DNA from: a virus
IMG/VR virus record: IMGVR_UViG_3300046028_004204
Span: 1 to 61,726 of that record
Reading direction: 5' to 3' (one strand)
Length of the DNA stretch: 61,726 nucleotides
Shown here: positions 7,076 to 27,992 of the stretch, piece after piece
Layout of the letters: each line of letters begins with the position of its first letter
How positions within the stretch are numbered: position 1 is the stretch's first letter
Notes under the pieces: generated by a model
Seen by the model: the letters and a program-made list of their open reading frames with translations, nothing else
Databases searched by the model: none
What the model was told of the DNA's origin: nothing
Translations under genes and position numbers: made by a program

Positions 7076-7077
7076 AA

Positions 7078-8675: not shown

Positions 8676-9079
8676 TTTCTTATAATCTTCCAAATTTGGT
8701 AATCGTCTAAAATAGTAATTTGTTCGTATCTTATTCTTCTAAAGAAATCGATATACTCAGTACTTAGTACAAGGCTATTGTTTAAAAAAATAACAGGAGC
8801 ACACTTCCTTGTTAATTGAGGAATAAATTGAAAAATACCGTTATCGTAATTTGTATTGAGAAATACAATATCGATATTTTGCAATTCATTCAAAAAATTG
8901 TGATCTTGTATAGGTATAACATTTTTATATCTTGGTAGTTGGTGCTGATAACTGATACAGAATACTGTATTAAACCCGTTAATTATATATTCGATATTTT
9001 TTTGATCAGAACCTACCACAATGACATTGTCTATGGTTTTTTTAACAGTTTTTTGAATTCTTTTTATAAATTTAGACAT
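8672..9079 (-). CDS. hypothetical protein at head of minus-strand glycan unit
   Basis: 135 residues. A basic N-terminus is followed by alternating beta/alpha segments (NVIVVGSDQ, NIDIVFLNTN, APVIFLNNS) resembling a small Rossmann-like fold without a clear SAM or sugar-nucleotide motif. First gene of the minus unit, coupled to the following transferase by ATGA. Function not recognised. Confidence 0.6.
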   Translation of the reverse strand: MSKFIKRIQKTVKKTIDNVIVVGSDQKNIEYIINGFNTVFCISYQHQLPRYKNVIPIQDHNFLNELQNIDIVFLNTNYDNGIFQFIPQLTRKCAPVIFLNNSLVLSTEYIDFFRRIRYEQITILDDYQIWKIIRK

Positions 9080-9112
9080 GATATGGATTAAATACTCAGT
9101 TATTTATTTTAT

Positions 9113-9967: not shown

Positions 9968-9998
9968 TTTTCACAATTTTAGGTGCTATACTGTATAG

Positions 9999-11189
9999 AT
10001 GCTAAAATCATCATTTGTCGAAGACATTTTTCTTGAGTTCGTGGACCTCTGCGATAATAAAAATATTCAGCTCCAACATCAGGATCAATCAGCTGCCAAC
10101 AGTTTCTTTGTTGTACTTTCTACCGGCGGTCAGCTGACCAAAAATCAGGCAAATTTCATCATCAAAATTCTCCAAAAATACAAAATGTATGCAAAATTAG
10201 CAGGGCTTGATTATTCCTTGCTTTTAGAAAATCCCGAGTGGAGAGGAGATTTTAGAATTCTTGATATGGCAAGAAAAATATTTATAGAAAAAGATGAAGA
10301 TGGAGAAGTGTGGATTTGTGCCAAGTTTCCTTTTGCACTAAAAGAGGTATTTGACCGAGAAATTTCACCAATTACCAAAGACTTCGGAGTTAGCACTTGG
10401 GACCCCGAAAGAAAGATTCGTAAGATGAAATTTTATAATTTTAACCTTATCGAAGTCTACGAGTTTGCACATACCAACAATTTCGAGATTGACGATACCT
10501 TTATGGTAGCACTTGCAGATGTTGAAGAAATTTGGCAAAATAGTGAAACAATTACTCCCTACTGCGAACTGCACTTTGGCGCAACCGTTGACTTGATCAA
10601 TGCTCCGCAGGAAACTGTTGAATGGTTTGAACAGCATAGAACCTGTAATCAATCTAGCGATCTACTACTGGCCAAGAGCATGGGATACCTATTAAAAGAA
10701 TCTCCAAAAACACTGGCAGAAAAGATAGCTGCATCAGAACACAGACAATTTTGGATGAAGAGCTTAGATCAGTTTTTTGAGCTTTACAAAGACACCGACG
10801 GCATAACAGCAGTGATTTTAAACAAAGGTGACAACGCAGAAGAATGGGTCAAGTCGTTTACTATGTCGGCTATTTTACATGATGTTTCGCCAACAGATAT
10901 CCGTATTTGTTTCCGTCAAGACAAGGTTGAAGATCGAGGGTTTAATCAGTGGGTTAAAGACAACGGCTACGGTGGTAAGGTAGAAGGTGGTAAAATTTTT
11001 ATATTTCAAAACAAACCCCCCAAGTGGTTGTTTTCTGATGGAATAGATGTTAAAATTATTTTAACTAATAGCTTATATCCAGTGCCCAGTGCCACTACAC
11101 AGGCCTGGATGGAATCACACACCTGTGTATGCTTTGTAGGTGATATCAAGGCTGCGCACATTAAGGACAAGAAAATTGCCGAGTTGTAA
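9999..11189 (+). CDS. conserved phage protein preceding UvsW, function unknown
   Basis: 396 residues, soluble, no signal peptide. An N-terminal block around WRGDFRILDMARKIF and the WICAKFPFALKEVFDREI segment resembles substrate-recognition modules that accompany helicases, but no nucleotide-binding motif is present. Its 3' end overlaps the uvsW-like start by 14 bp, which argues for co-translation and a possible helicase partner role (inference). Confidence 0.6.
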   Translation: MLKSSFVEDIFLEFVDLCDNKNIQLQHQDQSAANSFFVVLSTGGQLTKNQANFIIKILQKYKMYAKLAGLDYSLLLENPEWRGDFRILDMARKIFIEKDEDGEVWICAKFPFALKEVFDREISPITKDFGVSTWDPERKIRKMKFYNFNLIEVYEFAHTNNFEIDDTFMVALADVEEIWQNSETITPYCELHFGATVDLINAPQETVEWFEQHRTCNQSSDLLLAKSMGYLLKESPKTLAEKIAASEHRQFWMKSLDQFFELYKDTDGITAVILNKGDNAEEWVKSFTMSAILHDVSPTDIRICFRQDKVEDRGFNQWVKDNGYGGKVEGGKIFIFQNKPPKWLFSDGIDVKIILTNSLYPVPSATTQAWMESHTCVCFVGDIKAAHIKDKKIAEL

Positions 11190-12630
11190 ACTAACAATTA
11201 AAGATGAAGTTAATATCAAGATCGACGGACTGGCTGTAGAGACACGGCGTAAAATTGTCAATAAATTAAAGTTTGATTTGCCCTATGCACGACACATGCC
11301 GGCATATAAACTGGGTCGTTGGGATGGAACTAAAACTTATTTTAGCATAGGTGGTACTGGTTATCTTGCACACTTAGATGTTATATTACCTATCATAGAA
11401 GACAGTGGTTATGAAATTGACATAGAAGATCTTAGACATCATAGCAAGATAGAATTTGCGCCTATCAATGAAAACTATTGGGCAGATCAAGGCAAGACCT
11501 GGCCTAAAGGACATCCGGAAGCAGGCACACCTATCGTACTGCGTGACTATCAGTATGATGTTGTTAACAAATTTTTAGAAAATCCACAGGCCCTGCAAGA
11601 AGTTGCCACAGGTGCTGGTAAAACAATTACCACAGCAACACTCAGTCATTTATGTGAACCGTATGGTCGCACAATGGTAGTTGTACCTAACAAAAGTTTA
11701 GTTGTACAAACTGAAGAAGATTATAAAAATCTAGGCCTTGATGTTGGTGTTTACTTCGGTGATAGAAAAGAACTAGGTAAGACACATACCATATGCACAT
11801 GGCAAAGTCTTAATGTCTTAGACAAGAAAAGTTACGATGACGAAACGTTGAGTCTGGCTGAATTTACCGCAGGCGTGGCAGCAATTATTGTTGACGAGGT
11901 ACATCAAGCTAAAGCCGAAGTACTAACAAAATTATTAACACAGAACTTTAATAACTGTGCAATTCGTTGGGGACTTACCGGAACAGTACCTAAAGAAGCA
12001 TTTGAATTTCAAGGAATTCTTGCTAGCATTGGACCTGTTATTAATCAAGTATCTGCACACGATCTACAAGAAAAAGGTGTGTTGGCTAATTTACAAATCA
12101 ATGTATTACAGACTACAGATGTGCAGGTGTTTCGTAGTTTTCAAGAAGAATACAGTTTCTTAGTCACTGATCCTATAAGATTAACCTGGATGGCAAATAA
12201 GATCAAAGAATTATCTTTGAGCGGAAATACTCTTGTATTGATCAATAGAATCGACACAGGAAACAAATTAATTGAATTGATTCCCAATGCAGTGTTTGTC
12301 AGTGGCGGTATGAAACTAGACGACAGGAAAGAAGAATATGACGAAATTAAAACTAGTAATGGCAAGGTTATTGTGGCGACTTACGGTGTGGCCGCTGTGG
12401 GTATTAATATCCCCCGTATTTTTAATCTGGTTCTTATTGAGCCCGGAAAGAGCTTTGTTCGCGTTATACAAAGCATTGGACGGGGTATACGGAAAGCCCA
12501 AGACAAAGACCACGTTGAGATCTGGGATTTCACATCTACCTGCAAATACGCCAAGCGCCATCTTACGGAGCGAAAGAAATACTACAAAGAGGCCAAATAC
12601 CCCTTTACAATAACTAAGGTAAACCTATGA
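11176..12630 (+). CDS. uvsW: UvsW-like superfamily 2 DNA/RNA helicase
   Basis: 484 residues. UvsW unwinds branched DNA and R-loops and shuts off origin-dependent replication in T4. The N-terminal domain has the UvsW-type RHMPAYKLGRWDGTK strand; helicase motifs follow: Q-like RDYQYDVVNKF, Walker A ATGAGKT, Walker B VDEVHQ, motif III GLTGT, and motif VI QSIGRGIRK; it ends with the T4-like KVNL. I chose the TTG at 11176 because AAGGA at 11163-11167 lies 8 nt upstream; GTG 11140 is an alternative. Confidence 0.9.
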   Translation: MPSCKLTIKDEVNIKIDGLAVETRRKIVNKLKFDLPYARHMPAYKLGRWDGTKTYFSIGGTGYLAHLDVILPIIEDSGYEIDIEDLRHHSKIEFAPINENYWADQGKTWPKGHPEAGTPIVLRDYQYDVVNKFLENPQALQEVATGAGKTITTATLSHLCEPYGRTMVVVPNKSLVVQTEEDYKNLGLDVGVYFGDRKELGKTHTICTWQSLNVLDKKSYDDETLSLAEFTAGVAAIIVDEVHQAKAEVLTKLLTQNFNNCAIRWGLTGTVPKEAFEFQGILASIGPVINQVSAHDLQEKGVLANLQINVLQTTDVQVFRSFQEEYSFLVTDPIRLTWMANKIKELSLSGNTLVLINRIDTGNKLIELIPNAVFVSGGMKLDDRKEEYDEIKTSNGKVIVATYGVAAVGINIPRIFNLVLIEPGKSFVRVIQSIGRGIRKAQDKDHVEIWDFTSTCKYAKRHLTERKKYYKEAKYPFTITKVNL

Positions 12631-13161: not shown

Positions 13162-13506
13162 ATGAAAGCAGGTAAAGTGTGGGGACAAACAGAATTGTTA
13201 GAAGCCAATGGTGTATTAGAATTTCACCGTATTGAAGCCAAAGCCGGTGGCGTTTGCTCTAAGCACAAACACAAATTTAAATGGAATGGTTTCTTTGTCG
13301 AACAAGGTGAGATGATTATTCGTGTTTGGAAAAACAATTATGATCTAGTTGACGAAACCTTACTCAAGGCTGGACAATATACAAAAGTTGCTCCTGGAGA
13401 ATATCATCAATTTGAAGCAGTCACTGACTGTATTGCCTTTGAATTATATTGGGCAGAATTTGATCATAACGACATTGAACGAGAATCAGTAGGATTTTCA
13501 AAATGA
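13162..13506 (+). CDS. single-domain cupin protein
   Basis: 114 residues with a cupin pattern: a metal-site-like KHKHKFKWNGFFVEQGE block and a second motif GEYHQFEA. A strong ribosome-binding site AAAGGAG lies just upstream (13149-13156). Such cupins act as sugar isomerases/epimerases or bind glycan precursors. Its stop overlaps the downstream glycosyltransferase by ATGA, placing it at the head of the dideoxysugar sub-operon. Confidence 0.75.
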   Translation: MKAGKVWGQTELLEANGVLEFHRIEAKAGGVCSKHKHKFKWNGFFVEQGEMIIRVWKNNYDLVDETLLKAGQYTKVAPGEYHQFEAVTDCIAFELYWAEFDHNDIERESVGFSK

Positions 13507-14234
13507 GCGTAGCAATAGTTTCAACTTTTAGTCAACAAAATTATAACGAATATGCAAAATATTTTGTTGACAGTCTTGTAAAATACTTAGATCCCAATGT
13601 ACAGGTATTTTTGTACCTCGACGATATAAAATTAAAACTACCTGCTAATATCCATACTATTAATTTTAGTAAAACTGTGCCTAATCTAGGTGCTTTTAGA
13701 GAAAGAAATAAACATCGAACATTTAAAGATTTCTCTACAGATGCATGCCGTTTTAGTTTTAAAAGTTATGCATGGTGTCATGCGGGTCTAACTAAGCCAG
13801 CAGATAAACTTATTTGGTTAGATGCCGATACTGAATTATACAATCCGGTATCTGAAGCATATCTAGAATCAACTTTGCCAACCGGGTATTACACAAGTCA
13901 TTTATGGCGTCCAAACTACGGATATACCGAAACTGGATATTTAGGATGGGATTTAACTCATCCTCATTCAGACGAATTCTTCAATAGATATCAAAACTAT
14001 TATGATACTGATTCTATCTATACATTGCCTGCATATACAGATTGTCATGTATATGATGCGGTAAGAGCTCAGATGGAGTCTGAAGGAACTATTAAATCTC
14101 ACAATTTATCCCCGCCTAATATTAGTAAAGATCACTTTACAATAGCATTTAAAAATTATATTATGCATTATAAAGGCGACAGAATTACTAGAAGAAATAA
14201 AACTTTATCAAAATTAAAAGGAACTAAGGTATGA
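13503..14234 (+). CDS. DxD glycosyltransferase, paralogue of 7842-8675
   Basis: 243 residues. Same N-terminal motif VSTFSQQNYNEYAKYFVDSL, DxD as LIWLDADTEL, and the conserved TLPAYTDCHVYDAVR segment (TLAEWHDSFVFDAVR in the paralogue). Overlaps both neighbours by ATGA. Probably transfers a sugar during synthesis of the glycan whose precursor is made by the next two genes. Confidence 0.78.
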   Translation: MSVAIVSTFSQQNYNEYAKYFVDSLVKYLDPNVQVFLYLDDIKLKLPANIHTINFSKTVPNLGAFRERNKHRTFKDFSTDACRFSFKSYAWCHAGLTKPADKLIWLDADTELYNPVSEAYLESTLPTGYYTSHLWRPNYGYTETGYLGWDLTHPHSDEFFNRYQNYYDTDSIYTLPAYTDCHVYDAVRAQMESEGTIKSHNLSPPNISKDHFTIAFKNYIMHYKGDRITRRNKTLSKLKGTKV

Positions 14235-15412
14235 TATATCCATTAGCTTATGATAGTTGGGGTGATCAAGAAAGACAAGCCCTTCAAAAAGTTATTGATA
14301 GTGGTCGATACACAATGGGGAACGAAGTAGCAGAATTTGAAAAACAATTTGCAGAACACTACGGTTCTAAATATGCTGTAATGGCAAACAGTGGAAGCAG
14401 TGCTAATCTATTAATGTTAACTGCATTGCGATATGACGATCGATATAATTTAGAACCAGACGACGAAGTCATTGTACCCGCAGTTAGTTGGAGTACAACA
14501 TTTTTTCCAGTGCATCAAAATAATTTTAAATTGGTATTTGTTGACATTGATAGAAAAACATTAAATCTTAAAATTAGTTCAGTTATTGATGCCATAACAG
14601 ATAAAACTAAAATTATTTTTGTAGTTAATTTATTAGGAAATCCTGCCGAACTAGATAAGTTAGTTGAAATTTGCAATCAAAAAAATATTACCTTGATTGA
14701 AGATAATTGCGAAAGTTTAGGTGCAAAATTAGACAACAGATATTGTGGAACTTGGGGAGTAATGGGATCATTTAGTTTTTTCTTTAGTCATCATATGCAA
14801 ACCATGGAAGGCGGTATGGTATTAACTGACGATTTAAAACTATATCAAATGATGAAAAGCATTAGAGCGCATGGTTGGTTAAGAGACCTCCCCGCAGAAA
14901 ATCTAGTGTGCAATAAACTTAATGATCCGTTTAGAGATAGTTTTAGATTTGCATTACCTGGATACTGTCTAAGACCTTTAGAAATGAGTGGTGCTGTTGG
15001 ACAAGTACAATTAAAGAAAGTTGGTAATCAAATTGATCAAAGAAGAAAAAATGCAGTAGAATTTAAAAAATTATTTGATGATGTTGATTATATTGTTACA
15101 CAGATAGAATATGGATATAGCAGTTGGTTTGGCTTTTCTATTCTTCTACAGGGCGTATTAGAAGGAAAACGAGATATTGTAATTAAAGCACTAACGGCCG
15201 CAGGAGTAGAAACACGACCGATTGTTGCTGGAAATTTTGTTAATAATCCTGCCTGTAAATTCATAAATCATCGAACTAGTGGATCACTTGAAAATGCAGA
15301 ATATGTCGATGCAAACGGATTTTTTATTGGAAATGATTCTAGAGATTTAACTGACCCACTGTCTTTAGTAAAATCAGTGATAACAGAAATTTATGACAAA
15401 CAAAAAAATTAA
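14231..15412 (+). CDS. colD: ColD-type GDP-4-keto-6-deoxymannose 3-dehydratase
   Basis: 393 residues, PLP-dependent DegT/DnrJ/EryC1 fold: NSGSSANLL, DEVIVPAVSWSTT, EDNCESLG and SHHMQTMEGGM. The usual catalytic lysine is replaced by His at residue 188, the signature of 3-dehydratases such as E. coli ColD (His188) and RfbH-type enzymes, not of aminotransferases. The enzyme removes the C3 hydroxyl of GDP-4-keto-6-deoxymannose in colitose synthesis. gmd directly downstream makes that substrate, a strong contextual match. Confidence 0.88.
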   Translation: MIYPLAYDSWGDQERQALQKVIDSGRYTMGNEVAEFEKQFAEHYGSKYAVMANSGSSANLLMLTALRYDDRYNLEPDDEVIVPAVSWSTTFFPVHQNNFKLVFVDIDRKTLNLKISSVIDAITDKTKIIFVVNLLGNPAELDKLVEICNQKNITLIEDNCESLGAKLDNRYCGTWGVMGSFSFFFSHHMQTMEGGMVLTDDLKLYQMMKSIRAHGWLRDLPAENLVCNKLNDPFRDSFRFALPGYCLRPLEMSGAVGQVQLKKVGNQIDQRRKNAVEFKKLFDDVDYIVTQIEYGYSSWFGFSILLQGVLEGKRDIVIKALTAAGVETRPIVAGNFVNNPACKFINHRTSGSLENAEYVDANGFFIGNDSRDLTDPLSLVKSVITEIYDKQKN

Positions 15413-15413
15413 T

Positions 15414-16385
15414 ATGAAAAAAGCAATCATTACTGGAATAACCGGACAAGACGGTGGATATTTGGCTAAACTTTTATTATCTAAAAATTATAAAGTATAC
15501 GGCCTAATGAAAAGATACACCGCTCCAAACTGGGAAAATTTAGATTTTTTAGGTATTAAAGATCAGATTGAATTTATCAATGGTGATTTAACAGACATTG
15601 GTTCATTAATGCCTCATGTTAGGAATATTCAACCAGATGAATTTTATAATTTAGGTGCACAGAGTTTTGTAGGTGAAAGCTGGAATCAAGCACATCTAAC
15701 TACAGAAGTGAATGCGGTTGGGGTTTTAAATTGTTTAACAGCAATTAAAGAATTTAGCCCGACTACTAGATTTTATCAAGCCAGTACCAGTGAAATGTTT
15801 GGTAACAGTGATTCTCAAGGAATACAAACAGAAGAAACTCCGTTTATTCCTCGTAGTCCGTATGGTGTTGCAAAATTATATGCGCATCACATTACACAAA
15901 ATTATCGTGAAAGTTACGGCATGTTTGCTTGCAGTGGAATATTATTCAACCACGAAAGTCCTATTAGAGGAATTGAATTTGTAACTAGAAAAATTACAGA
16001 CGGTGTTGCACAAATTGTTACAGGCAAGAAAAAAGAATTAATATTAGGTAATCTTGATGCCAAACGAGATTGGGGATTTGCTGGAGATTTTGTTGAAGCC
16101 ATGTGGTTAATGCTACAACAAGAACAACCAGAAGACTATATTATCAGTACCGGAAATCAGCACACAGTTCGTGATGTGTTAGATATTGCATTTAAAAGAG
16201 CAGGTGTTAGCGATTGGTCATCATATGTAAGATCTGACCAGCAATATATGCGACCCGCAGAACTTAACGCATTATTAGGCTCTAGCGACAAAGCCAAACA
16301 TCAGTTAGGATGGGTTTCAAAAATGTCTTTTAAAGAATTAATTGAAACAATGACCGATGAAGATTTAAAAAGGCATGCTCTGTGA
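15414..16385 (+). CDS. gmd: GDP-mannose 4,6-dehydratase
   Basis: 323 residues from the ATG one base after the preceding stop; an upstream ATG at 15393 would add seven residues. Extended SDR with GITGQDGGYLAK (NADP site), LGAQSFVGESW, TSEMFG and catalytic SPYGVAKLYAH, then FNHESPIRG. Converts GDP-mannose to GDP-4-keto-6-deoxymannose, the substrate of the adjacent ColD. Somewhat shorter than cellular Gmd. Confidence 0.93.
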   Translation: MKKAIITGITGQDGGYLAKLLLSKNYKVYGLMKRYTAPNWENLDFLGIKDQIEFINGDLTDIGSLMPHVRNIQPDEFYNLGAQSFVGESWNQAHLTTEVNAVGVLNCLTAIKEFSPTTRFYQASTSEMFGNSDSQGIQTEETPFIPRSPYGVAKLYAHHITQNYRESYGMFACSGILFNHESPIRGIEFVTRKITDGVAQIVTGKKKELILGNLDAKRDWGFAGDFVEAMWLMLQQEQPEDYIISTGNQHTVRDVLDIAFKRAGVSDWSSYVRSDQQYMRPAELNALLGSSDKAKHQLGWVSKMSFKELIETMTDEDLKRHAL

Positions 16386-16900
16386 AAATAGCAATTACTG
16401 GGCATACATCAGGATTAGGGCAAGCTCTGTTTAATCATTGGAGTAGTACTAGTTATAATCTTATCGGTTTTAGTCTAAGCAACGGTTTTAATATAGATAC
16501 CGATATAGAAAAAATATCTGATGTTGAGTTTGATATTTTCATTAATAATGCGTATTCTAAGTACCAACAAGTTGAATTATTATATAAACTATATGAAAAA
16601 AACAAAGACAGAAAATGCACAATAATTAATATTGGCAGCGCAAGCTCGGACGGCAATGTTGATAGAATTAAACCTTATGCTATTGAAAAATTAGCATTAG
16701 AAAAAGCCTGTCTGCAATTGCAATTTAACACAAGTGTTTGTAAAGTATTATTAATCAAGCCTGGAAGAATGGAAACTCCTATGGTAGCACATACTAACTC
16801 AAAAAAAATAGATTTATCTTATATGGTATCAACTATTGATTGGTTAATTGCCCAACCAGAAAATATAGCTATTAGATCTATTACTATTGACAGTTTTTAA
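16382..16900 (+). CDS. short-chain dehydrogenase/reductase (short form)
   Basis: 172 residues from a GTG overlapping the gmd stop (GTGA). Classical SDR motifs: TGHTSGLGQALF cofactor loop, a strand ending in NNAYS, INIGSASSDG with the catalytic serine, and YAIEKLALEKA (Y-x3-K). About 70 residues shorter than typical SDRs. Could be the 4-keto reductase of the dideoxyhexose pathway. AT-rich like its neighbours. Confidence 0.75.
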   Translation: MKIAITGHTSGLGQALFNHWSSTSYNLIGFSLSNGFNIDTDIEKISDVEFDIFINNAYSKYQQVELLYKLYEKNKDRKCTIINIGSASSDGNVDRIKPYAIEKLALEKACLQLQFNTSVCKVLLIKPGRMETPMVAHTNSKKIDLSYMVSTIDWLIAQPENIAIRSITIDSF

Positions 16901-16914
16901 AAACAAAATTTAAG

Positions 16915-17706
16915 TTAGGTAATCTGATATTGTTCAACCAAATCTGCTACTAGTGTTCCTTTAAAAAACTCCTCCGGAGAAAATTGACTCCATGCAATGT
17001 GTTCTACCCAATCAGTTCTATCAGGAAATACAGGATTATTAATTGCATTAAGATCTGTCCCCATAAGAATACTAACCGCAGAAAAATCAGTAGTGTACGC
17101 AGGATGTCCTAACATCACAGCTTCTACGCAGGCCATTGTTCTTTCTCCTACTACTGCATGACACCCTGTTAGATCATTTAAAAATCCAGGCCATCTCCTG
17201 GGGTCTTTACCCCCAACTTTGCGCCGCCATTTTACTGGGCCGTCCCAATATTGTTTTAAATTTAATAAAAATTCAGTTTGCCAAACATTAAATGTTTTGC
17301 CTGTTCGTTGTAGTAACATGTTAGGTTGAGGTTCGATTAATAAAAGGTAATCTCCTCGATCTGTTTTTTTCCAGTCTTCTATTTTAGGATTTAAGGTGTC
17401 TAGACGAGAATACGGAACTTTGTTAAATTTAAGATTGTGACTACCATTGTATGTAACTCTCCTTGTATTCCTTCTAGGATTATTTACGCCCCAATAGCCG
17501 TAGTCTATTTCTATATGGTTGTTGCCTTTAACAATCCATTCTTTATAAGGACTCCACCACGGAGGAACATGACAAGATATTAATATGTAATCGTTGGGTA
17601 TTTCGTCGACTGTATTGAATATTTTGGCTCCTTTCTTGACCCAAGGTTCAAAAAGCCATGCATCTCGAGATGCGACTGTAACTTGTGGACATATTGCATA
17701 TTTCAT
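16915..17706 (-). CDS. GT-B/KpsC-like putative glycosyltransferase, paralogue G
   Basis: 263 residues from the ATG at 17706 (an in-frame TTG at 17712 is less likely). Most divergent copy: IDYGYWGVNN replaces the DTGYFGN motif; VGERTMACVEAVMLGHPAY and AWSQFSPEEFFKG align to the family boxes, while PVKWRRKVG replaces the TDRPVEVR strand. It is a single minus-strand gene between convergent and divergent neighbours. Confidence 0.62.
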   Translation of the reverse strand: MKYAICPQVTVASRDAWLFEPWVKKGAKIFNTVDEIPNDYILISCHVPPWWSPYKEWIVKGNNHIEIDYGYWGVNNPRRNTRRVTYNGSHNLKFNKVPYSRLDTLNPKIEDWKKTDRGDYLLLIEPQPNMLLQRTGKTFNVWQTEFLLNLKQYWDGPVKWRRKVGGKDPRRWPGFLNDLTGCHAVVGERTMACVEAVMLGHPAYTTDFSAVSILMGTDLNAINNPVFPDRTDWVEHIAWSQFSPEEFFKGTLVADLVEQYQIT

Positions 17707-17722
17707 AGTCAACTATTTAACT

Positions 17723-17730
17723 AATAAATA
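17723..17730 (+). promoter_or_regulatory. possible late-type promoter AATAAATA
   Basis: AATAAATA lies 35 bp before the ATG at 17765. The complementary strand has TTAAATAG close to the start of copy G, so the 58-bp gap may be bidirectional. Weaker match than the GATAAATA sites. Confidence 0.3.
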
Positions 17731-17764
17731 GTTTGCTAATTAAAAACATGCAGGATTATAAATT

Positions 17765-18340
17765 ATGGGATATTTTAGTCAAACGGTAACTGTAGATTCG
17801 TCCTCTCAAGATCTTTCTAGACTAGATTTTTTAACACCGTTGGTAACAGATCTCAAAGTTCTGCATGTTGGATTTGTAGATTACCCAATTACAAAACCTA
17901 AAAAAAATCTACATTTAAGAATAGCACCTGTATGTAAGAGAATAGACGGTATAGATCCTAATGCTACAGATGAAATAAAATTAGTATTGTCTGTACCTAA
18001 CGGTAATATATACGATTCCTGGAATGATGTACCTAACGACTATGATGTAATAATTGTACCAGAAGTTATTGAGCATGTTGACAATGTTGCATTGTTTTTG
18101 CAACAGTTGGATCAAGTAAAGGGAAAATTAATAATCACAGCCCCATGTGCTTATAAACTTAGTAATAATTTTAGAGAAGAAAACGGGGTGTACATTGAAA
18201 CAGTGCATCCTGATCATAATTGCTGGTATTCTCCGTATACATTAAAAAATGTCATAAACAAGTATAGTAAAACTCGACAGGTAACATCAATGCATTGGGC
18301 AGTTGGATCAATTGTAGCTGTGTGTGGTATGAATGAATAA
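17765..18340 (+). CDS. class I SAM methyltransferase-like protein
   Basis: 191 residues. Has VLHVGFVDYP in place of the usual glycine loop, then IIVPEVIEHVDNVALFL and KLIITAPCAY, the core of Methyltransf_11/23-type enzymes. The degenerate motif I leaves SAM binding uncertain. Stop overlaps the next transferase start. Confidence 0.65.
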   Translation: MGYFSQTVTVDSSSQDLSRLDFLTPLVTDLKVLHVGFVDYPITKPKKNLHLRIAPVCKRIDGIDPNATDEIKLVLSVPNGNIYDSWNDVPNDYDVIIVPEVIEHVDNVALFLQQLDQVKGKLIITAPCAYKLSNNFREENGVYIETVHPDHNCWYSPYTLKNVINKYSKTRQVTSMHWAVGSIVAVCGMNE

Positions 18341-19007
18341 AATAATTTATATATTTTGGACTGAGGCGAATGAGCTTACACCTCGTAGAAAAAATAATCT
18401 ACAGATTATAAAAGATCGATGTGGTGTGGAATTAAAGTTTTTAAATCATGATGATATTCCTAAGTACGAACTTGCAGATCATAAATTTCACGAAACTTAT
18501 CAATATCTTTCAGCCACTGCTAAATCAGACTATCTTAGAAGTTATTTTATGAATTTTTATGGTGGTGCCTACTGCGATATAAAAAGGGCCGAATGGGATT
18601 GGAATCCTTACTTTGATCAACTAGACCAGTCTGAGAATTGGATAATAGGATATCCGCTGCCGCAAGGAAATTTTATAACAGATCCTCAAGATCTAGATCG
18701 TGATGTAATGTCACAACATTGGAATCAGCTAATCGGTGCAGGAGCAATGATTTGTAAATCAAGAACTCCGTTAACTGAACATTGGTTTAAATCTATGACT
18801 GACATTTTAGATAGAAAGCACGAGCAATTAAAAAATAATCCAGCAGCACATGTAAGAGACAGATTAAATTGGAAAGGGACCACCTCAAATTATCCGTTAA
18901 GATGGGCTGAGATTGGTCCAGAAACATTTATTAAAAGTTGTTATCTGCATAAACAATATATCAGTCAACAGTTACCGAGTCCTGTATTAAATGAGAAATA
19001 TAGATAA
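18333..19007 (+). CDS. GT32-like DXD-type glycosyltransferase
   Basis: 224 residues. IYIFWTEANELTP start and TAKSDYLRSYFMNFYGGAYCDI core match the sugar-binding DXD region of capsule/Och1-type transferases (usually R-x6-GG-x-Y-x-D-x-D). Here the second acidic residue is lysine (YCDIK), an unusual substitution that may weaken metal binding. Adjacent genes abut or overlap by one to eight bases. Confidence 0.72.
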   Translation: MNKIIYIFWTEANELTPRRKNNLQIIKDRCGVELKFLNHDDIPKYELADHKFHETYQYLSATAKSDYLRSYFMNFYGGAYCDIKRAEWDWNPYFDQLDQSENWIIGYPLPQGNFITDPQDLDRDVMSQHWNQLIGAGAMICKSRTPLTEHWFKSMTDILDRKHEQLKNNPAAHVRDRLNWKGTTSNYPLRWAEIGPETFIKSCYLHKQYISQQLPSPVLNEKYR

Positions 19008-19648
19008 TGAAAAATATAATAGTACAGATTTACATCAGTTTAGATAAATCTTCAGATACTGCTCCTATTCTTCCAGCCTTCGATGAATTAAGCAAAGTAT
19101 CAATTAGTCTTGCAAAAAAATATTGTAACAAGATAGGAGCAGAGCATGTATTAATAACCGAACCGTTTATTAATTTCATCCATCCTACTTATGAACGATT
19201 TAGATTGTTTGAAGATCCGTATTGGACTGACAACTATGACAATGTTTTATATATTGATTCTGATGTGTTTATATTCAACGATGCTCCAAATATATTTGAG
19301 TGCTATCCAGATACTACAACATTTAAAGTTTGTCGACACTATCAAGAATTTTTACGGGGTGGGCCACCACAAGGGTTTAATGCAGGAGTCTTTATGTTAA
19401 ATAAAATCTCAAGAGACATAATGCTACCCCATCTAAACTACAGAGTTTCCCCGCCATTCAGTTCACACGATAATACAGCATTAGTTAATTGTGTCAACGA
19501 CTCGGGAGTAGATGTCACCGTTATGGATGCAAGATTTAATGCAAAAAATGCCACTGATTGTTATTTCAGTCATACTTGGGGATCAGGCAAAAGAAAAAAA
19601 CCAAATATGGAATGTATACTCAAAGCTAAAGAACAGGTAAATTTATGA
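19007..19648 (+). CDS. GT8-like glycosyltransferase
   Basis: 213 residues. LYIDSDVFIF supplies the DxD motif near residue 82, and GFNAGVFMLNK is the nucleotide-sugar contact block typical of GT8/glycogenin-like enzymes; a final HTWGSGK contributes a metal-ligand-like histidine. Coupled upstream (shared A of stop and start) and downstream (ATGA). Confidence 0.8.
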   Translation: MKNIIVQIYISLDKSSDTAPILPAFDELSKVSISLAKKYCNKIGAEHVLITEPFINFIHPTYERFRLFEDPYWTDNYDNVLYIDSDVFIFNDAPNIFECYPDTTTFKVCRHYQEFLRGGPPQGFNAGVFMLNKISRDIMLPHLNYRVSPPFSSHDNTALVNCVNDSGVDVTVMDARFNAKNATDCYFSHTWGSGKRKKPNMECILKAKEQVNL

Positions 19649-20178
19649 TAATTGAAGAAATTTTTAACAGTTTTAAAAACAAAACTAGAGAGGGTGTGAA
19701 GTGGAAAATGGTAGGTGATATGTATCGTAGAATGGATTACATACAACAAACATTTCAAGGTGTAGAAACTATTACAGAATTTGGGCCATTCCAGGGATGT
19801 TCAACATCTGCCTGGCTTATGTTAAAACCAAAAAAATTCGTAACAGTTGATCAAGGCCCAACATTAGACAAAGAGTTGTTTCGAAGAGCAGCAGAAGAAG
19901 CTGGCGTCGAATTTCAATTTGTGTTAGGTAATGATTTAGAAATAGAAATAGAACCTTGCGAGTTATTGTTTATAGACACCATGCATACTGAAGAACACAC
20001 TTATAATGAACTAAGATTACATGCAGACAAAGTTTCAAAATATTTGGTATTTCATGATGTGGCAGAACCTAGATTTGGAACTTATGCAGGTATAAGAAAA
20101 TGGTGGACAAATAATCCTCAGTGGCGTATAAAATATCATGACAATGATGACTGCGGATTTTTAGTTTTAGAAAAATGA
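19645..20178 (+). CDS. SAM methyltransferase, Methyltransf_24/CmcI-like
   Basis: 177 residues. TEFGPFQGCSTSAWLML is motif I, FVTVDQGP motif II, and LLFIDTMHTEEHTYNELRLHADKVSKYLVFHDV the characteristic metal-site region of CmcI/TylF-like O-methyltransferases. Likely methylates a sugar hydroxyl. Overlaps the epimerase gene by ATGA. Confidence 0.8.
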   Translation: MIIEEIFNSFKNKTREGVKWKMVGDMYRRMDYIQQTFQGVETITEFGPFQGCSTSAWLMLKPKKFVTVDQGPTLDKELFRRAAEEAGVEFQFVLGNDLEIEIEPCELLFIDTMHTEEHTYNELRLHADKVSKYLVFHDVAEPRFGTYAGIRKWWTNNPQWRIKYHDNDDCGFLVLEK

Positions 20179-21008
20179 AAATTTTAATAACAGGTAATGC
20201 CGGATACGTCGGTTCACATCTGACTCAATTACTGAGTAAAAGAACTGATTTAGAACTTTACGGCCTAGATAGGAATAAGCCACAGTTGCCTGTTAAAGAG
20301 CAGTCTTGGAACAATATAACAATGCCTGGATATTTTCTATGGACAAAAGATTTTGAATTTGATTGTGTAATTCATTTGGCAGCTGAAGTGGCTGTAGGTC
20401 GCAGTGTAATAAACCCCATAGTGTATTATCAAACAAACACCTTAGGCACATTACGAGTCCTCCAAGATTTAAAATGTAAACGATTTATACATGCCAGTAC
20501 GGGTTCGGCAGGACCAATGAACAATCCCTACGGTATTAGCAAACGAGCCTCTGAAGAAATTGTAGACCAATATTGCAAAGAACGAAGTATACCGTTTACT
20601 ACTTTTAGATTTTATAATGTAACAGGATCCGATGGTATAAAGCCTACCAATCCAGATGGACTTATGTGGAATTTAATGAATGCACAAAAGACTGGGGTGT
20701 TTAACTTGTTCGGCGACGATTACAATACTCTAGACGGATCTGCTGTGCGCGACTATACTCATGTTAATGAAATTTGTCATGCTCTAGAACAAGCAATTGA
20801 TCGTTCAACAAATCAAATAGAAAATCTAGGTCACGGAGTTGGAACATCAGTTAAACAAATGATCGACCTATATAAGAAAGTTAATAACTGTGAATTTGAA
20901 GTTCAAGTATGCCCAAGAAGAGCAGGCGATCTTGAGCGAAGTGTACTTGACAACCCTTCTACTTTTATGCAACAATTGTATACAATGGAAGATTTATTAA
21001 AGGTTTAA
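20175..21008 (+). CDS. NAD-dependent epimerase/dehydratase (extended SDR), possible ColC-like enzyme
   Basis: 277 residues. GNAGYVGSHLTQLL binds NAD(P), CVIHLAAEVAVG follows, STGSAGPMNNPYGISKRASEE holds the Y-x3-K pair, and YTHVNEICHAL the C-terminal domain. The family includes UDP-glucose 4-epimerases and GDP-L-colitose/fucose synthases. With gmd and colD in the same cassette, it is a candidate for the final epimerase/reductase step, though the sequence alone does not prove it. Confidence 0.82.
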   Translation: MKILITGNAGYVGSHLTQLLSKRTDLELYGLDRNKPQLPVKEQSWNNITMPGYFLWTKDFEFDCVIHLAAEVAVGRSVINPIVYYQTNTLGTLRVLQDLKCKRFIHASTGSAGPMNNPYGISKRASEEIVDQYCKERSIPFTTFRFYNVTGSDGIKPTNPDGLMWNLMNAQKTGVFNLFGDDYNTLDGSAVRDYTHVNEICHALEQAIDRSTNQIENLGHGVGTSVKQMIDLYKKVNNCEFEVQVCPRRAGDLERSVLDNPSTFMQQLYTMEDLLKV

Positions 21009-21009
21009 C

Positions 21010-21561
21010 ATGTCTTATTCTGATTCATATAAAGAAACACTTAAAGAACTTCACAAAAGCAAAGCATTTGGTAATAAATCTAGTATTCCTCAAGAAGTAG
21101 TTGAATGTATAGAAAAATATCAAGTAACCTCTATTTTAGATTTTGGTTGCGGTAAGGGTAATTTTTTGACCGCTCTTAAAGAGCAGTATCCGGATATGGA
21201 GATATTTGGATTTGATCCTGGAAATGAAATGTTCTCTGTATTGCCAGATAAGGTTGATATGATTTACTCATCTGATGTGTTAGAACATATAGAACCAGAT
21301 CATTTAATAGATACATTAGTAGATCTAAAGAATAGATGTTCAAAAGTTATGTATCATTTAATTGCCTGTCACCCTGCCAAACGGGGGATGAGTGACGGGA
21401 GGAACGCACATTTGATAATAGAAAATCCGGACTGGTGGCGATCAAAATTACAAAGTATAAATTATCAAATACTAAGTGAAAAAATTACACAATATCAAGC
21501 AGCACCTAAAAAAGGTCCAACTATTGATGTAATAAAATATATTATAACTGTAGAGATTTAA
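21010..21561 (+). CDS. class I SAM methyltransferase
   Basis: 183 residues. SILDFGCGKGNFLTAL is a canonical motif I; FGFDPGNEMF motif II; DMIYSSDVLEHIEPDHLIDTL motif IV. Last gene of the glycan cassette; the gap to the next gene is one base. Probable small-molecule or sugar methyltransferase. Confidence 0.82.
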   Translation: MSYSDSYKETLKELHKSKAFGNKSSIPQEVVECIEKYQVTSILDFGCGKGNFLTALKEQYPDMEIFGFDPGNEMFSVLPDKVDMIYSSDVLEHIEPDHLIDTLVDLKNRCSKVMYHLIACHPAKRGMSDGRNAHLIIENPDWWRSKLQSINYQILSEKITQYQAAPKKGPTIDVIKYIITVEI

Positions 21562-21811: not shown

Positions 21812-22277
21812 ACACGTAGATCTTTTTAAAGACATGATTCCCGCAGTGGATATGGGAATTAAAGAATTATGGGATGCAGTTACAGACGAAGGCCGCAAAG
21901 AAATCAAAGGCGACTTTTGGAATCTTACCCGCTATATTAGTAACGTTAAAAGTTCCAATAGAGAACTTCAAGAGCACTTTATTCTAACAGTCAACGAATA
22001 CTACAACAAGAATTGGAATGACATCCAACAACATCCTAAACTGGTTTGGCAGACACTTTGTCTATGCAGTCACGAAAGTAAGAAAACACAATTTCACGAA
22101 TGGATTCCCCTAAAGAAAGAAGCAAACAAAAAAGAAAAGTTCCTAGCAGAATTATTTCCAAATATGAAGTTTAGTGACATTGAGACACTTGCAATAATAA
22201 CCACAGACAAAGAGATTAAAGAATATGCTAAGGGCCTTGGTTGGGACAAAAAGCAAATTGCAGACATTAAATTATAA
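21798..22277 (+). CDS. probable clamp-loader small subunit, gp62-like
   Basis: 159 residues, predicted helical. The order FWNLTRYISN (fixed-position aromatic/NR-like block), a central W-rich helix pair, and a C-terminal IKEYAKGLGWDKKQIADI resembles the small, poorly conserved gp62 subunits of marine T4-like phages, which with gp44 load the gp45 clamp. gp44 and gp45 are not in this window, so this remains a pattern-based assignment. Confidence 0.45.
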   Translation: MAKNKHVDLFKDMIPAVDMGIKELWDAVTDEGRKEIKGDFWNLTRYISNVKSSNRELQEHFILTVNEYYNKNWNDIQQHPKLVWQTLCLCSHESKKTQFHEWIPLKKEANKKEKFLAELFPNMKFSDIETLAIITTDKEIKEYAKGLGWDKKQIADIKL

Positions 22278-22944
22278 GTGCGAACATTGCGGTAAACTGT
22301 TTGCTAAAGAAAAGACTTTAGTGGTACATATCTGCGAACAAAAGCGCAGACATATGAGCAAAGACGAACGACATGTTAAACTGGGTCTAATGACCTATCA
22401 GCGTTTCTATGAATTAACACAGAAGGCCAAACAGCCTAAAACATTTGATGAGTTTGCATCCAGTCCATACTACACTGCCTTTATAAAGTTTGGCAGTTTT
22501 ATGTCAAATACAAATCCTATCTATCCAGAACGATTTGTAGACTATGTGGTTAAAAGCGGTATTAAATTAGACCACTGGTGTCGAGACGAGCTCTACGATT
22601 CATACATCAGTGAGCTTATAAAAATTGAACCAGCAGATGGTGCAATACAACGCACTATACAAACCATGATGGACTGGGCAGATAAAAATTCTGCACCTTG
22701 GGAACACTACTTTGCCTTTGTAAATTTAAACAGAGCCACACACGATATTAAAGAAGGCTTGATCTCGCCTTGGATCTTGTTAAATAGCAAGTCAGGTAAA
22801 GACATGATTAGACGCATGAATCAAGAACAATTAGAAATAGTTGGACCTGTAGTAGACCCTGGGTTCTGGATGCGTAGATTCAAATCAACACCTGCCGATC
22901 ACGAGTTAGTTAAAGACGTCATCAAGGAGGCGAAGATTTTATGA
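22225..22944 (+). CDS. C2H2-like zinc-finger protein of T4-like phages
   Basis: Up to 239 residues. An N-terminal zinc finger reads YKCEHCGKLF-x7-VVHICEQKRRH (C-x2-C...H-x-C or H). The rest is helical with conserved SPYYTAFIKFGSF and KLDHW blocks. The start is uncertain: ATG 22225 gives a 53-bp overlap with the upstream gene, TTG 22258 a 20-bp overlap and a finger at the extreme N-terminus. Nucleic-acid binding is likely; role unknown. Confidence 0.65.
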   Translation: MLRALVGTKSKLQTLNYKCEHCGKLFAKEKTLVVHICEQKRRHMSKDERHVKLGLMTYQRFYELTQKAKQPKTFDEFASSPYYTAFIKFGSFMSNTNPIYPERFVDYVVKSGIKLDHWCRDELYDSYISELIKIEPADGAIQRTIQTMMDWADKNSAPWEHYFAFVNLNRATHDIKEGLISPWILLNSKSGKDMIRRMNQEQLEIVGPVVDPGFWMRRFKSTPADHELVKDVIKEAKIL

Positions 22945-23177
22945 TTTTTAAAAAACGACGAGAAGAAGTCGAAGAACCGATTGAAGAAGAGTTGGCCTAC
23001 AATGAAGAACATATCTCTAGAGATGACATTGATATAGAAGTAGTAATTGGGGAGGATACCCCCGATGTATATGTTAAATTTTCGGGTTTCGAAGATAGTG
23101 AAGATGCCGAAGAGTACGCACAGTTCTTAGCAGAAACACTACCATTACTTTTATTTGAAAGCACACGGTTACAATAA
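22941..23177 (+). CDS. small acidic phage protein
   Basis: 78 residues. Basic first ten residues (FKKRREEVEE), then very acidic, with a hydrophobic C-terminal ETLPLLLFESTRLQ that could be a clamp- or polymerase-docking tail like those of T4 late-transcription factors; this last point is speculation. ATGA overlap upstream, TAATG junction downstream. Confidence 0.6.
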   Translation: MIFKKRREEVEEPIEEELAYNEEHISRDDIDIEVVIGEDTPDVYVKFSGFEDSEDAEEYAQFLAETLPLLLFESTRLQ

Positions 23178-23755
23178 TGCCAGATATCGACATAGACTTT
23201 ATAGATCGCGAACAGGCGCTGAAACTGTTTAAACATACAGTTGCCAGTAGAAATGATAACGGCCGATTGGTCAAACATAATACAGGTGTGTACCTTCATG
23301 AGGTTCCGGTTGACGCTGTTACGAGTCTATGCAGTGTGCCTTATGAGCAGGCAGAAGAACAAGAGTTTTTTAAAATAGATTTTCTCAATGTTGGGTTATA
23401 CAACGGTGTTCGAAACGAAGAACATCTCTTACAACTTATGGAGACCGAGCCGCTATGGGATCTACTTTTACAAGACGAGTTCAACAATCTATTATTTCAC
23501 GTCAACGGACATGGTTCTATTCTAAGAGAAATGCAGCCGACCTCGATCGAACAGTTGGCAGCAGTACTAGCAATGATCCGCCCTGCCAAGAGACATCTAA
23601 TCGGCAAGGACTGGTCAGTAGTGATGAAAGAAGTCTGGACAAAACCAGAGACCAATGATTATTATTTCAAGAAGAGTCACGCCACTGCCTATGCCGTTGC
23701 CATTGTAGTGCAGATGAATTTAATTTGTGAATCGATAAGTTATGGATATTCGTGA
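23177..23755 (+). CDS. miniature DnaE-like protein (DNA polymerase III alpha active-site motifs)
   Basis: 192 residues against more than 1,000 for DnaE. It begins exactly at MPDIDIDF, equivalent to the palm MPDxDxDF with two catalytic aspartates. KIDFL at residues 66-70 matches the third-Asp KxDFLGL motif; SILREMQPTSIEQLAAVLAMIRP matches LRxLKPxxFEDIxAxxALYRPGP; and FKKSHATAYAVA matches FNKSHAxAYAxx. PHP, most of the fingers, and the clamp- and OB-domains are missing. Overlaps the methyltransferase gene by 14 bp. Function unknown. Confidence 0.75.
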   Translation: MPDIDIDFIDREQALKLFKHTVASRNDNGRLVKHNTGVYLHEVPVDAVTSLCSVPYEQAEEQEFFKIDFLNVGLYNGVRNEEHLLQLMETEPLWDLLLQDEFNNLLFHVNGHGSILREMQPTSIEQLAAVLAMIRPAKRHLIGKDWSVVMKEVWTKPETNDYYFKKSHATAYAVAIVVQMNLICESISYGYS

Positions 23756-24305
23756 TAGCTTTAGTGCTGCTCAGATGCAGAGCAAACAATGGCTCGTACA
23801 AAGATTAGAAAATGTTCTACTAGAAGAGCGCCCAATTGAGGACGGATATCGCATCTGGATATTGGCAGGATGGCACGGTCTAACTAATCTGTTACTACGA
23901 ACACGTAATCAAATTCCTGTATTAGAAGTTAGAAGTTTTGACATTGATCCTAGTTGTGAAGCCATTGCTGATGCAGTGAATAATCTGTGGGTATGGAAGG
24001 CTTGGGAGTTTAAAGCACACACTGCCGACATTAATCAACTAGAATACGACCCACAACCCGATGTTGTTATTAACTCTAGTGTTGAGCACATGACTAGTAA
24101 TCTTTGGTGGACGAATATCCCCAAAGGTACAATTGTTTGCTTACAAGTCAGTGATATGGAAGATGAAGATCATGTCAACAAGTTTAGCACTGCGCATGAT
24201 CTGTTTAAAGCATATCCTGTCGAAGAGCTGATCTACGAAGGTGTTAAACGATTTGAATTTAACGACAAGGCCTTTTATAGGTCTATGATTATTGGCATTA
24301 AGTAA
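23742..24305 (+). CDS. SAM methyltransferase-like protein
   Basis: 187 residues. Class I-like layout with a degenerate glycine loop (WILAGWHGLTNLLL), SFDIDPSCEAIADAVN (motif II acidic residue) and PDVVINSSVEHM (motif IV). The pattern is conserved enough to expect SAM binding, but the substrate is unknown. Coupled to the mini-DnaE gene. Confidence 0.65.
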   Translation: MDIRDSFSAAQMQSKQWLVQRLENVLLEERPIEDGYRIWILAGWHGLTNLLLRTRNQIPVLEVRSFDIDPSCEAIADAVNNLWVWKAWEFKAHTADINQLEYDPQPDVVINSSVEHMTSNLWWTNIPKGTIVCLQVSDMEDEDHVNKFSTAHDLFKAYPVEELIYEGVKRFEFNDKAFYRSMIIGIK

Positions 24306-24669
24306 TTTTTCTAACCAACGTTATACTTCTACGCTTGATTCTCTTAACAATAATATCGTTTAGGCTGGTACACGGTCCTAGAAGTATCTTTGTGTCTTTT
24401 GTTGAAAAGTTTCTAATTGCATATCTAAAGCCGTAGATTTCTCTCAATAGAAAAATATTGATAGGAATTTGACGATTTGACTCCCACCACCAAATTTCTC
24501 CTAATTCTAAGAACTTGGCTTTTTCTCCGTCAGTTTTGATCAGAGTATAGTCATACATGCTAGTGACCTGAGCATCTTGATTGATCACAACACCCACATA
24601 TTCGTGGTTGACATGATTTACCACACTTATGAATGGAAAGTTTTCTTGTAAGTTTTCTGTTATTCTCAT
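24298..24669 (-). CDS. hypothetical minus-strand protein
   Basis: 123 residues from the ATG at 24669 (a TTG at 24684 is less likely). Tryptophan-rich centre (LGEIWWWESN) and basic C-terminus. Convergent with the methyltransferase gene (8-bp overlap) and divergent from the next gene. No domain recognised. Confidence 0.55.
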   Translation of the reverse strand: MRITENLQENFPFISVVNHVNHEYVGVVINQDAQVTSMYDYTLIKTDGEKAKFLELGEIWWWESNRQIPINIFLLREIYGFRYAIRNFSTKDTKILLGPCTSLNDIIVKRIKRRSITLVRKIT

Positions 24670-24670
24670 A

Positions 24671-24678
24671 GATAAATA
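24671..24678 (+). promoter_or_regulatory. late-type promoter GATAAATA
   Basis: Exact GATAAATA 20 bp before the virion-like gene at 24699, with AAAGGA (24683-24688) as ribosome-binding site right at the predicted transcript start. Spacing fits the T4 late promoter pattern. Confidence 0.65.
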
Positions 24679-24698
24679 CTGCAAAGGATCCGTTTAGT

Positions 24699-25532: not shown

Positions 25533-26546
25533 ATGACTCTCGTCTTAGACAAATTTCGTTCATTACTACCAAAGACTAAGTCCAGCCCAAGCGGCTGGAT
25601 CAGTTTCAATGCGCCTTGTTGTCATCATAGAGGTCATGCTAGAGATACTCGAAAACGAGCAGGTGTTATGTTCAGTGAAGGGGTGATTTACAACTGCTTC
25701 AATTGCAAATACACTGCCAGTTGGCAACCTGGAAGAAACATCTCCGAAAAGTTTAAGAGCTTGTGTCGTTGGCTAGGTGCTAACGATGATCAAATTAAAG
25801 AATTAGTGTTTGAAGCACTTAAAACAGAATCAACAGACTACGAACCCGATCACTTCGTTGAAAAGGTCAAGTTCACGGAAAAAGAATTACCCGAAGGCGC
25901 AATGTCTATTAATGAGTGGGTTAATTCAGCATATCTTCCAGACATATCTGCAGACATCGGCCCAGTAATAGATTATATTTATAGTCGAGGATTTGATGCG
26001 TTGAGTGAACATTTCTATTGGAGTCCAGCACCCGGATACATAGATCGAGTTCTCCTGCCCTATTATTACGAAGGTAAAATTGTAGGCAGCACCGCAAGAA
26101 AAGTTCGAGAAGGCAAGCCTAAGTACTTGTCGGATCAGCATCCTTTCTTTGTGTTTAACGTAGACGAGCAAGATCCAAAAAACAAATATGTATTTGTAGT
26201 AGAAGGCCAGTTTGATGCCTATTCAATAGGTGGTGTTGGATTGTTAACCAACGAGATAGCACAGCAACAAGCTCACATCATCAACCAATTAGGCAAAGAA
26301 GTAATTGTAATACCAGATCAAGATAAGGCTGGTTTGATGCTGATCAAGCAGGCCATAGACTACGGATGGAGTGTAGCGTTCCCTACATGGGATAATAATG
26401 TAAAAGATGTTGCAGATGCTGTGCAAAAATATGGTCGATTGTTTGTAACAGTTGATGCCATTAAAACTGCCCAACAGGGCGAAATTAAAATCAGTGTAGC
26501 AAGGAACAACCTCGAAACACGCCTTGCATTACATGAAGAAAGATAA
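25533..26546 (+). CDS. DnaG-type primase, gp61-like
   Basis: 337 residues, like T4 gp61 (342). N-terminal zinc-binding module CCHHRGHARDT...YNCFNCKYTA; TOPRIM core with YVFVVEGQFDAYSI (catalytic Glu) and VIVIPDQDKAG (DxD). Synthesises RNA primers with the gp41 helicase encoded next. Starts at ATG 25533, 12 bp after the preceding stop. Confidence 0.9.
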   Translation: MTLVLDKFRSLLPKTKSSPSGWISFNAPCCHHRGHARDTRKRAGVMFSEGVIYNCFNCKYTASWQPGRNISEKFKSLCRWLGANDDQIKELVFEALKTESTDYEPDHFVEKVKFTEKELPEGAMSINEWVNSAYLPDISADIGPVIDYIYSRGFDALSEHFYWSPAPGYIDRVLLPYYYEGKIVGSTARKVREGKPKYLSDQHPFFVFNVDEQDPKNKYVFVVEGQFDAYSIGGVGLLTNEIAQQQAHIINQLGKEVIVIPDQDKAGLMLIKQAIDYGWSVAFPTWDNNVKDVADAVQKYGRLFVTVDAIKTAQQGEIKISVARNNLETRLALHEER

Positions 26547-26558
26547 TATAATATAACT

Positions 26559-27992
26559 ATGATAAAAGATTACGGAATTGAAGTACAGAAGCTATATCTT
26601 GAATTGATGCTGGCAGATGCAGAAGTGTTTGTACGCTGTCAAGGTATTTTTGATCACACACTATTTGATCGCAAACTACAAGATGCGGCAGAATTCATTA
26701 ATGAATATGCCAAACAGTATAGTGTGCTGCCGGACTATGAAATGGTCAATGCATCGTGTAGAACTGATATGAAGCGGCCCGAAGCAGTCAAAGACGGACA
26801 TATGGAATGGTTGATGGACGAGTTTGAATCGTTCACTAGACATAAAGCCATTGAGCGAGCAATTATCGCCAGTGCTGACTTGTTAGAGCAACACAACTAC
26901 GGTGAAGTTGAGACCTTGATTAAAGAAGCAGTTCAAATTGGTCTTGCTCGCGACATGGGCACAGACTACTTTGCTGATCCTCGTGGGCGACTAATGGGCC
27001 TCAAAGACAAGAACGGTCAGATCTCAACAGGTTGGCCTTGTATGGACCGTAAGCTGTTTGGTGGAATGAATCGTGGAGAGCTAAACATCTTTGCAGGTGG
27101 ATCAGGTGCAGGTAAAAGTTTGTTCCTGGCTAATCTAGGAGTGAACTGGGCATTGATGGGTCTTAATGTTGTTTATCTAACACTAGAACTTTCAGAAGCA
27201 CTGGTATCTATGCGTATTGACAGTATGGTTACAGGTGTTGGTACTAAAGAGATTTTTAAAGATCTTGATGATGTTGAAATGAAAGTCAAGATGATCGGCA
27301 AGAAAGCGGGTATGCTACAGATCAAGTACATGCCTAGTGGCAAGACTGTTAATGATATCCGTGCTTACATCAAAGAATATGAAATCCGTGTGGGCAAGAA
27401 AGTAGATGTGTTGTTGGTAGATTATCTAGACTTGTTGATGCCCATAGGTAAAAAGATTTCAGCAGAAAACTTGTTTGTCAAAGACAAGTATGTATCAGAA
27501 GAACTGCGTAATCTAGCAATGGAAAAAAAGATTCTGTTGGTAACTGCCGCCCAGTTGAATCGTGGTGCTGTAGAAGAAGTTGAGTTTGATCACAGTCACA
27601 TCTCAGGTGGATTGAGTAAGATTCAAACTGCTGACAATGTGTTTGGTATCTTTACATCGAGAGCAATGCGTGAACGAGGTCGTTATCAGATACAGCTAAT
27701 GAAGACTCGTTCATCAAGCGGTGTAGGACAAAAGGTTGATCTAGAATTTAACATCGAAAGCCTAAAAATTAGTGATCTTCCAGAAGAAGAACAAGAAAGC
27801 AACGGAGCCAGCAGTCGTGGATCTAGCAGTCTAATCGAAAGCATTAAAAATCGCTCAACTGTTAAAATAGACAGCGACGGTGTAATCCATGATGACCCCA
27901 CACAGGGAGCCAGCATTGGTAAAGTACGAGCCAATGTAGAATCCAGCAAATTGTTGGAGTTGTTGAACAAGATGCACGATGAAGACGAATAA
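26559..27992 (+). CDS. replicative DnaB-type helicase, gp41-like
   Basis: 477 residues. RecA-fold helicase with Walker A GGSGAGKS, VVYLTLELSE, Walker B VDVLLVDYLDLL, TAAQLNR (motif H3) and the KTRSSSGVGQ DNA-binding loop. Hexameric unwinding enzyme of the T4-type fork; forms the primosome with the upstream primase. C-terminal ~60 residues are Ser-rich and flexible. Overlaps the next gene by 14 bp. Confidence 0.93.
   Translation: MIKDYGIEVQKLYLELMLADAEVFVRCQGIFDHTLFDRKLQDAAEFINEYAKQYSVLPDYEMVNASCRTDMKRPEAVKDGHMEWLMDEFESFTRHKAIERAIIASADLLEQHNYGEVETLIKEAVQIGLARDMGTDYFADPRGRLMGLKDKNGQISTGWPCMDRKLFGGMNRGELNIFAGGSGAGKSLFLANLGVNWALMGLNVVYLTLELSEALVSMRIDSMVTGVGTKEIFKDLDDVEMKVKMIGKKAGMLQIKYMPSGKTVNDIRAYIKEYEIRVGKKVDVLLVDYLDLLMPIGKKISAENLFVKDKYVSEELRNLAMEKKILLVTAAQLNRGAVEEVEFDHSHISGGLSKIQTADNVFGIFTSRAMRERGRYQIQLMKTRSSSGVGQKVDLEFNIESLKISDLPEEEQESNGASSRGSSSLIESIKNRSTVKIDSDGVIHDDPTQGASIGKVRANVESSKLLELLNKMHDEDE

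Follow-up and report, generated by a model that had tools for sequence, protein, structure and literature searches.

The window, that is, the whole 61,726 nt stretch of viral DNA under analysis (IMG/VR record IMGVR_UViG_3300046028_004204), encodes a 192-residue protein whose ORF runs from an ATG at 23177 to a stop codon ending at 23755 and begins with MPDIDIDF, exactly as the initial annotation had placed it (Table 1). The counterparts of the DnaE motifs KxDFL, LRxxxPTxxExxAxxxAxxRP and KKSHAxAYA that had been read in it do follow one another along the chain, as KIDFL (residues 66-70), LREMQPTSIEQLAAVLAMIRPAK (116-138) and FKKSHATAYA (164-173), and all three palm catalytic aspartates of a family C polymerase are kept (D3, D5 and D68). 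The GS nucleotide-binding motif is not in this chain, which begins after it; in relatives, a separate protein carries that motif. The ORF is real and is a relative of DnaE, the alpha subunit of DNA polymerase III, but it corresponds only to the C-terminal half of a minimal form of that enzyme split over two genes. Hereafter we refer to the two proteins as the C half and the N half.

Table 1. The C-half gene, its catalytic codons and the neighbouring genes in the window.
Feature	Coordinates	Strand	Remarks
239-aa ORF, C2H2-like zinc-binding N-terminus (phrog_11058)	22225..22944	+	neighbour in 83/85 loci
78-aa upstream ORF	22941..23177	+	stop overlaps the C-half ATG (TAATG); in 43/90 loci
C half of split minimal Pol III alpha	23177..23755	+	192 aa; MPDIDIDF and KIDFL strands, shortened fingers (RPAK, KKSHA)
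Codons 3-7 (DIDID)	23183..23197	+	invariant in 131 distinct homologues
Codon 68 (KIDFL Asp), E. coli D555 counterpart	23378..23380	+	invariant in 131 homologues; predicted strand 67-71
187-aa ORF between C half and convergent gene	23742-24305	+	same place in only 5/88 testable relatives
Convergent 128-aa ORF (phrog_11637, unknown function)	24298..24684	-	neighbour in 84/87 loci
Toprim-type DNA primase	25533..26546	+	neighbour in 71/74 loci
DnaB-like replicative helicase	26559..27992	+	neighbour in 40/41 loci

Counted over non-redundant loci, the C half keeps largely the same company, with a primase and a replicative helicase a short distance downstream. The overlap between the stop codon of the 78-aa ORF and the C-half start codon suggests coupled translation of the two. 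Given how few relatives share the 187-aa ORF, it is probably a recent insertion. In relatives the minus-strand phrog_11637 ORF often overlaps the C half at its 3′ end; the cluster is otherwise on the plus strand. Elsewhere in the window, long blocks of ORFs judged by reading to be sugar-nucleotide, glycosyltransferase-like and methyltransferase-like (1363-10000 and 13500-21560) flank a UvsW-type helicase (11140-12630); reference phages have a compact replication module in this place.

Searches with the single ORF sequence were weak, both in the PDB and in the Pfam scan, where the DnaE finger domain was the only match and fell below threshold, so the case is built on family profiles and on the Z-scores of the structural aligner. 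Among PHROG families the ORF matches phrog_11778, labelled 'DNA polymerase', over nearly its full length (E=4e-65), and a C-half profile searched against solved structures ranks DnaE chains at the top, if weakly (best E=0.0012), both in line with the relationship to DnaE proposed at the outset. Taken with the wide distribution and the purifying selection described below, the identification stands well beyond chance. A tRNA hydroxylase (8fhc) also matched the C profile (E=0.034) and was set aside, since it ranks below DnaE and is missing from the structure comparison.

The C-half structure was predicted from a 65-sequence alignment (nine rows from annotated records were left out of the prediction alignments) with a mean pLDDT of 89.8. 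The model aligns to the palm and fingers of DnaE over 188 of its 192 residues, which bears out the palm resemblance expected by the initial annotation; the matched regions, in alignments of 176-190 residues, are Taq DnaE 461-841, E. coli 400-781, PolC 971-1299 and Mtb from 419. The best DnaE/PolC rows reach Z-scores of 9.0-9.7, against at most 3.4 for unrelated chains. Foldseek places DnaE first for the C-half and N-half models alike, yet with E-values above 0.001. The first residues of the ORF are those of the catalytic strand, at Taq 461 and E. coli 400, and D3 and D5 align with the catalytic D401 and D403 of E. coli, going by this alignment start and the established numbering. Going by the alignment of the model to DnaE, the catalytic residues of the C half would lie adjacent to one another.

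Sixty-three residues separate D5 from D68, modelled mainly as strands plus two short helices, compared with about 150 residues between the equivalent D403 and D555 in E. coli (established numbering). No thumb helices stand between the two palm aspartate strands of the model, and a spacing this short and mainly of strands indicates that the helical thumb is absent. Thumb loss had gone unmentioned in the initial annotation, which was right that the PHP domain and the clamp- and tau-binding parts are gone and that the fingers are reduced. Its description of the ORF as a catalytic core is correct for the palm aspartate strands and overstated for the whole, because another gene supplies the GRGS half of the palm.

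That other gene was located in nine complete phage genomes, each of which has one DNA_pol3_alpha Pfam match, in a second small ORF far from the C half. The N half is about 172 aa long (~169-182) and its C-terminus reads ...GxGRGSSxxSYxLxLIGxHxVDSxxYxLDxxEFLK-stop, and the distance from where the GxGRGS motif begins to the end of the protein is exactly 35 residues in 61 of 87 non-redundant N halves and 35-44 residues in all of them. By sequence profile it matches residues 319-392 of E. coli DnaE and 336-406 of Mtb DnaE. Since in Mtb coordinates the N-half profile ends at 406 and the C-half profile begins at 413, about six residues apart, the gene break lies in the loop just ahead of the catalytic MPDIDIDF strand. 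An N-half model (mean pLDDT 93.1) was obtained from a 53-sequence alignment for the protein of relative G013; the C halves of G013 and the window share 70% identity. Residues 73-168 of the N-half model align structurally with E. coli 280-393, Mtb 305-413 and Taq 295-455, as well as with the equivalent palm segment of PolC, with Z-scores of up to 12.2 for DnaE/PolC and 2.6 for the next unrelated chain. Comparison of the N and C profiles returned no relation, hence no sign of a duplicate origin.

Residues 1-72 of the N half (L125) occupy the place of PHP, are poorly conserved in sequence and have no structural match among the rows returned. Other phage families with proteins of 461-782 aa (phrog_13169, phrog_11165 and phrog_7513) also match the N half; the phrog_13169 match stops near the C-terminus, which hints at further split or truncated Pol III versions.

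A tblastn search of INPHARED gave 63 records for the N half and 63 for the C half, in lists that overlap almost fully. The C-half matches each cover at least 80% of the query and include the phages RaK2, 121Q, GAP32, PA5oct, Atu_ph07, SCTP-2 and XacN1, while the split family also reaches Alishewanella Slicko01, a 141 kb phage under jumbo size. In IMG/VR, more than 550 C-half matches are spread over hundreds of contigs; most of the records searched with both profiles have both halves and the rest have one, where any record may be a fragment. Profile searches recovered both halves in 10/10 reference phage genomes (nine plus Stenotrophomonas RAS14). Neither a fused N+C ORF nor both halves in one locus turned up among 208 loci (6-10 kb flanks). 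The N half was not found in the 61.7 kb window, an absence to be expected of a virus fragment of this size given that it lies more than 160 kb from the C half, in linear contig coordinates, in four close relatives (G008, G013, G016 and G020). Judging from these relatives, the phage sampled by the window probably encodes an N half as well.

The N half has replication neighbours of its own, as a gp44-type clamp-loader ATPase lies downstream of it in 33/33 loci with 5 kb of downstream sequence. In most N-half loci a GroES/Cpn10-like gene and a phrog_14844 gene sit between the two (e.g., L115 8242-8592). As to other polymerase components, a family B polymerase is present in 9/9 reference genomes tested, family A polymerase was found in 0/9, and PHP, fragments included, in 0/10. 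A DnaQ-like exonuclease was considered as a constant partner and rejected, being present in 7/10 genomes only. The family B polymerase match spans two open frames in OQ508956 (3529-5033), NC_042013 (212336-213688) and OR805295 (88906-92683), where PolB itself may be split or interrupted.

Conservation follows the active site in both proteins. Across 131 distinct C halves, residues D3, D5, D7, H34, P44, K66, D68, R135, P136, K138, H168 and Y172 are invariant, so that the retention of the palm aspartates noted in the window extends to the family. The 86 distinct N halves compared all share R102, E106 and GxGRGS. This pattern argues for a live active site built from two chains. Comparison of the C-half gene with its nearest relative (L001) gives dN 0.076 and dS 1.04 (dN/dS ~0.07), evidence of strong purifying selection, and lengths and ends are nearly constant across hundreds of relatives. 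In Atu_ph07, the annotated start of gp074 at 9073 (L083 8992-9567) leaves out the catalytic DIDID strand; a start at 8992 in the same frame yields MKNIPDIDIDF.

We consider it likely that the C half is the metal-binding, template-side half of a two-subunit family C palm, free of thumb and PHP, that joins the separate N half as a fork polymerase. The N half (~172 aa) would supply the helical half of the palm and the GRGS loop, which in DnaE binds the incoming triphosphate, and the C half the metal-binding strands and finger elements, the two assembling into one DnaE-type active site. Such a complex could extend primed DNA by nucleotide addition at the fork of the phage, acting as a short-range helper of the phage family B polymerase in primer extension, gap filling or repair; lacking a thumb, it would likely be distributive unless partners hold it in place. 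A self-contained minimal polymerase, one of the roles first suggested for the ORF, finds no support, since the nucleotide-binding half is a separate protein. Two observations count against a fork polymerase: with the thumb lost, the complex has no obvious means of holding duplex DNA, and phages that already have a family B polymerase (9/9 genomes) may well manage without a second one. The broadest form of the proposal, a natural two-subunit polymerase with its active site across two genes and neither thumb nor PHP, whose halves meet at the fork and which would be both the smallest family C polymerase and the second polymerase in a family B replisome, seems to us about evenly poised between right and wrong.

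The same two observations, loss of the thumb along with most of DnaE and a family B polymerase in every genome tested, would suit a complex that no longer polymerises and has a structural or regulatory part in the replisome, such as sensing nucleotides or primer ends. We hold this to be unlikely, as metal-binding aspartates invariant in 131 sequences and a GRGS loop invariant in 86 would be unusual in a dead enzyme. An active nucleotidyltransferase other than a templated DNA polymerase, adding nucleotides to an end, to RNA or to protein, is a shade more doubtful again: the thumb is missing and the DnaE palm has a Pol beta-like nucleotidyltransferase fold (PMC7824862, and established knowledge), whereas the DnaE-type finger elements RPxK and KKSHAxAY are retained and the neighbours are replication genes.

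Of the remaining roles raised in the initial annotation, a tRNA/RNA-binding derivative finds no footing, since no active-site position has been lost and the two genes belong to phage replication clusters. These facts tell equally against a mimic of host DnaE that would act as a decoy or inhibitor, hijacking or blocking the host replisome. A fragment of a host-type protein within a phage would fit such a role; the PHP, clamp-binding and tau-binding parts touched by host factors are nevertheless all absent, and the N half and replication genes accompany the C half in the genomes tested. With the C half beside the primosome and the N half beside the clamp loader, a replisome function is favoured, and the evidence points to a replisome enzyme and not a host decoy, which we regard as very improbable. 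A decaying remnant of full-length DnaE, brought to mind by the short length of the C half relative to DnaE and by earlier annotators having called the N half truncated (PMC5259590), is refuted by purifying selection and conserved length, and we give it practically no weight.

A split enzyme of this kind was already predicted in 2021, and the present gene adds another member of this kind, apparently untried in experiments so far. Through comparative genomics, Iyer et al. 2021 (PMC7824862) described a phage-specific minimal Pol III alpha made up of two proteins, an N-terminal one that binds NTP and a C-terminal one that binds Mg2+ and template, whose genes lie far apart in the jumbo phages of group 2.2 that have a family B polymerase. 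They proposed that it synthesises one of the strands or serves in repair, and that it is of ancient origin. The ORF agrees with their C half in its palm aspartate strands, finger motifs and size (~190-210 aa), and the PHROG counterparts of the pair are phrog_11778 (C half) and phrog_11127 (N half). The separate, far-apart N and C genes of its close relatives and of the reference phages, and the family B polymerase of the nine reference genomes tested, match group 2.2; in the clade of the window the C half differs in opening at MPDIDIDF, without an N-terminal extension. The CBB paper (PMC5259590) had recorded the N half as a 172-aa 'truncated' alpha. Our literature search, with subscription papers and preprints outside its scope, found no experimental follow-up of the split enzyme.

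Like bacterial DnaE/PolC, the C half has the palm catalytic strands and the KxDFL, RP and KSHAxAY finger motifs, with GRGS in the partner protein; unlike them, the split enzyme is without PHP, thumb, beta-binding, OB and tau-binding parts and has its palm cut into two polypeptides. The full-length DnaE of group 3.2 phages (e.g., phage G) is likewise a phage-encoded family C polymerase, but is a single chain with PHP and thought to be host-derived (PMC7824862).

What the present analysis adds is exactly where one half stops and the other begins, a predicted structure for each, the residues that stay invariant across large sets of both, the replication genes to which each is linked, and the spread of the family to a phage of 141 kb and to metagenomic contigs by the hundred. 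Should the halves polymerise together, they would amount to a minimal parts list for a bacterial replicative polymerase and would directly test the proposal of Iyer et al. (PMC7824862) that family C enzymes could have been built up from small pieces that were once separate. It would also raise the question of why many large phages keep another polymerase in addition to their family B enzyme. The linkage of the N half to the clamp loader, and of the C half to primase and helicase, shows where a search could begin.
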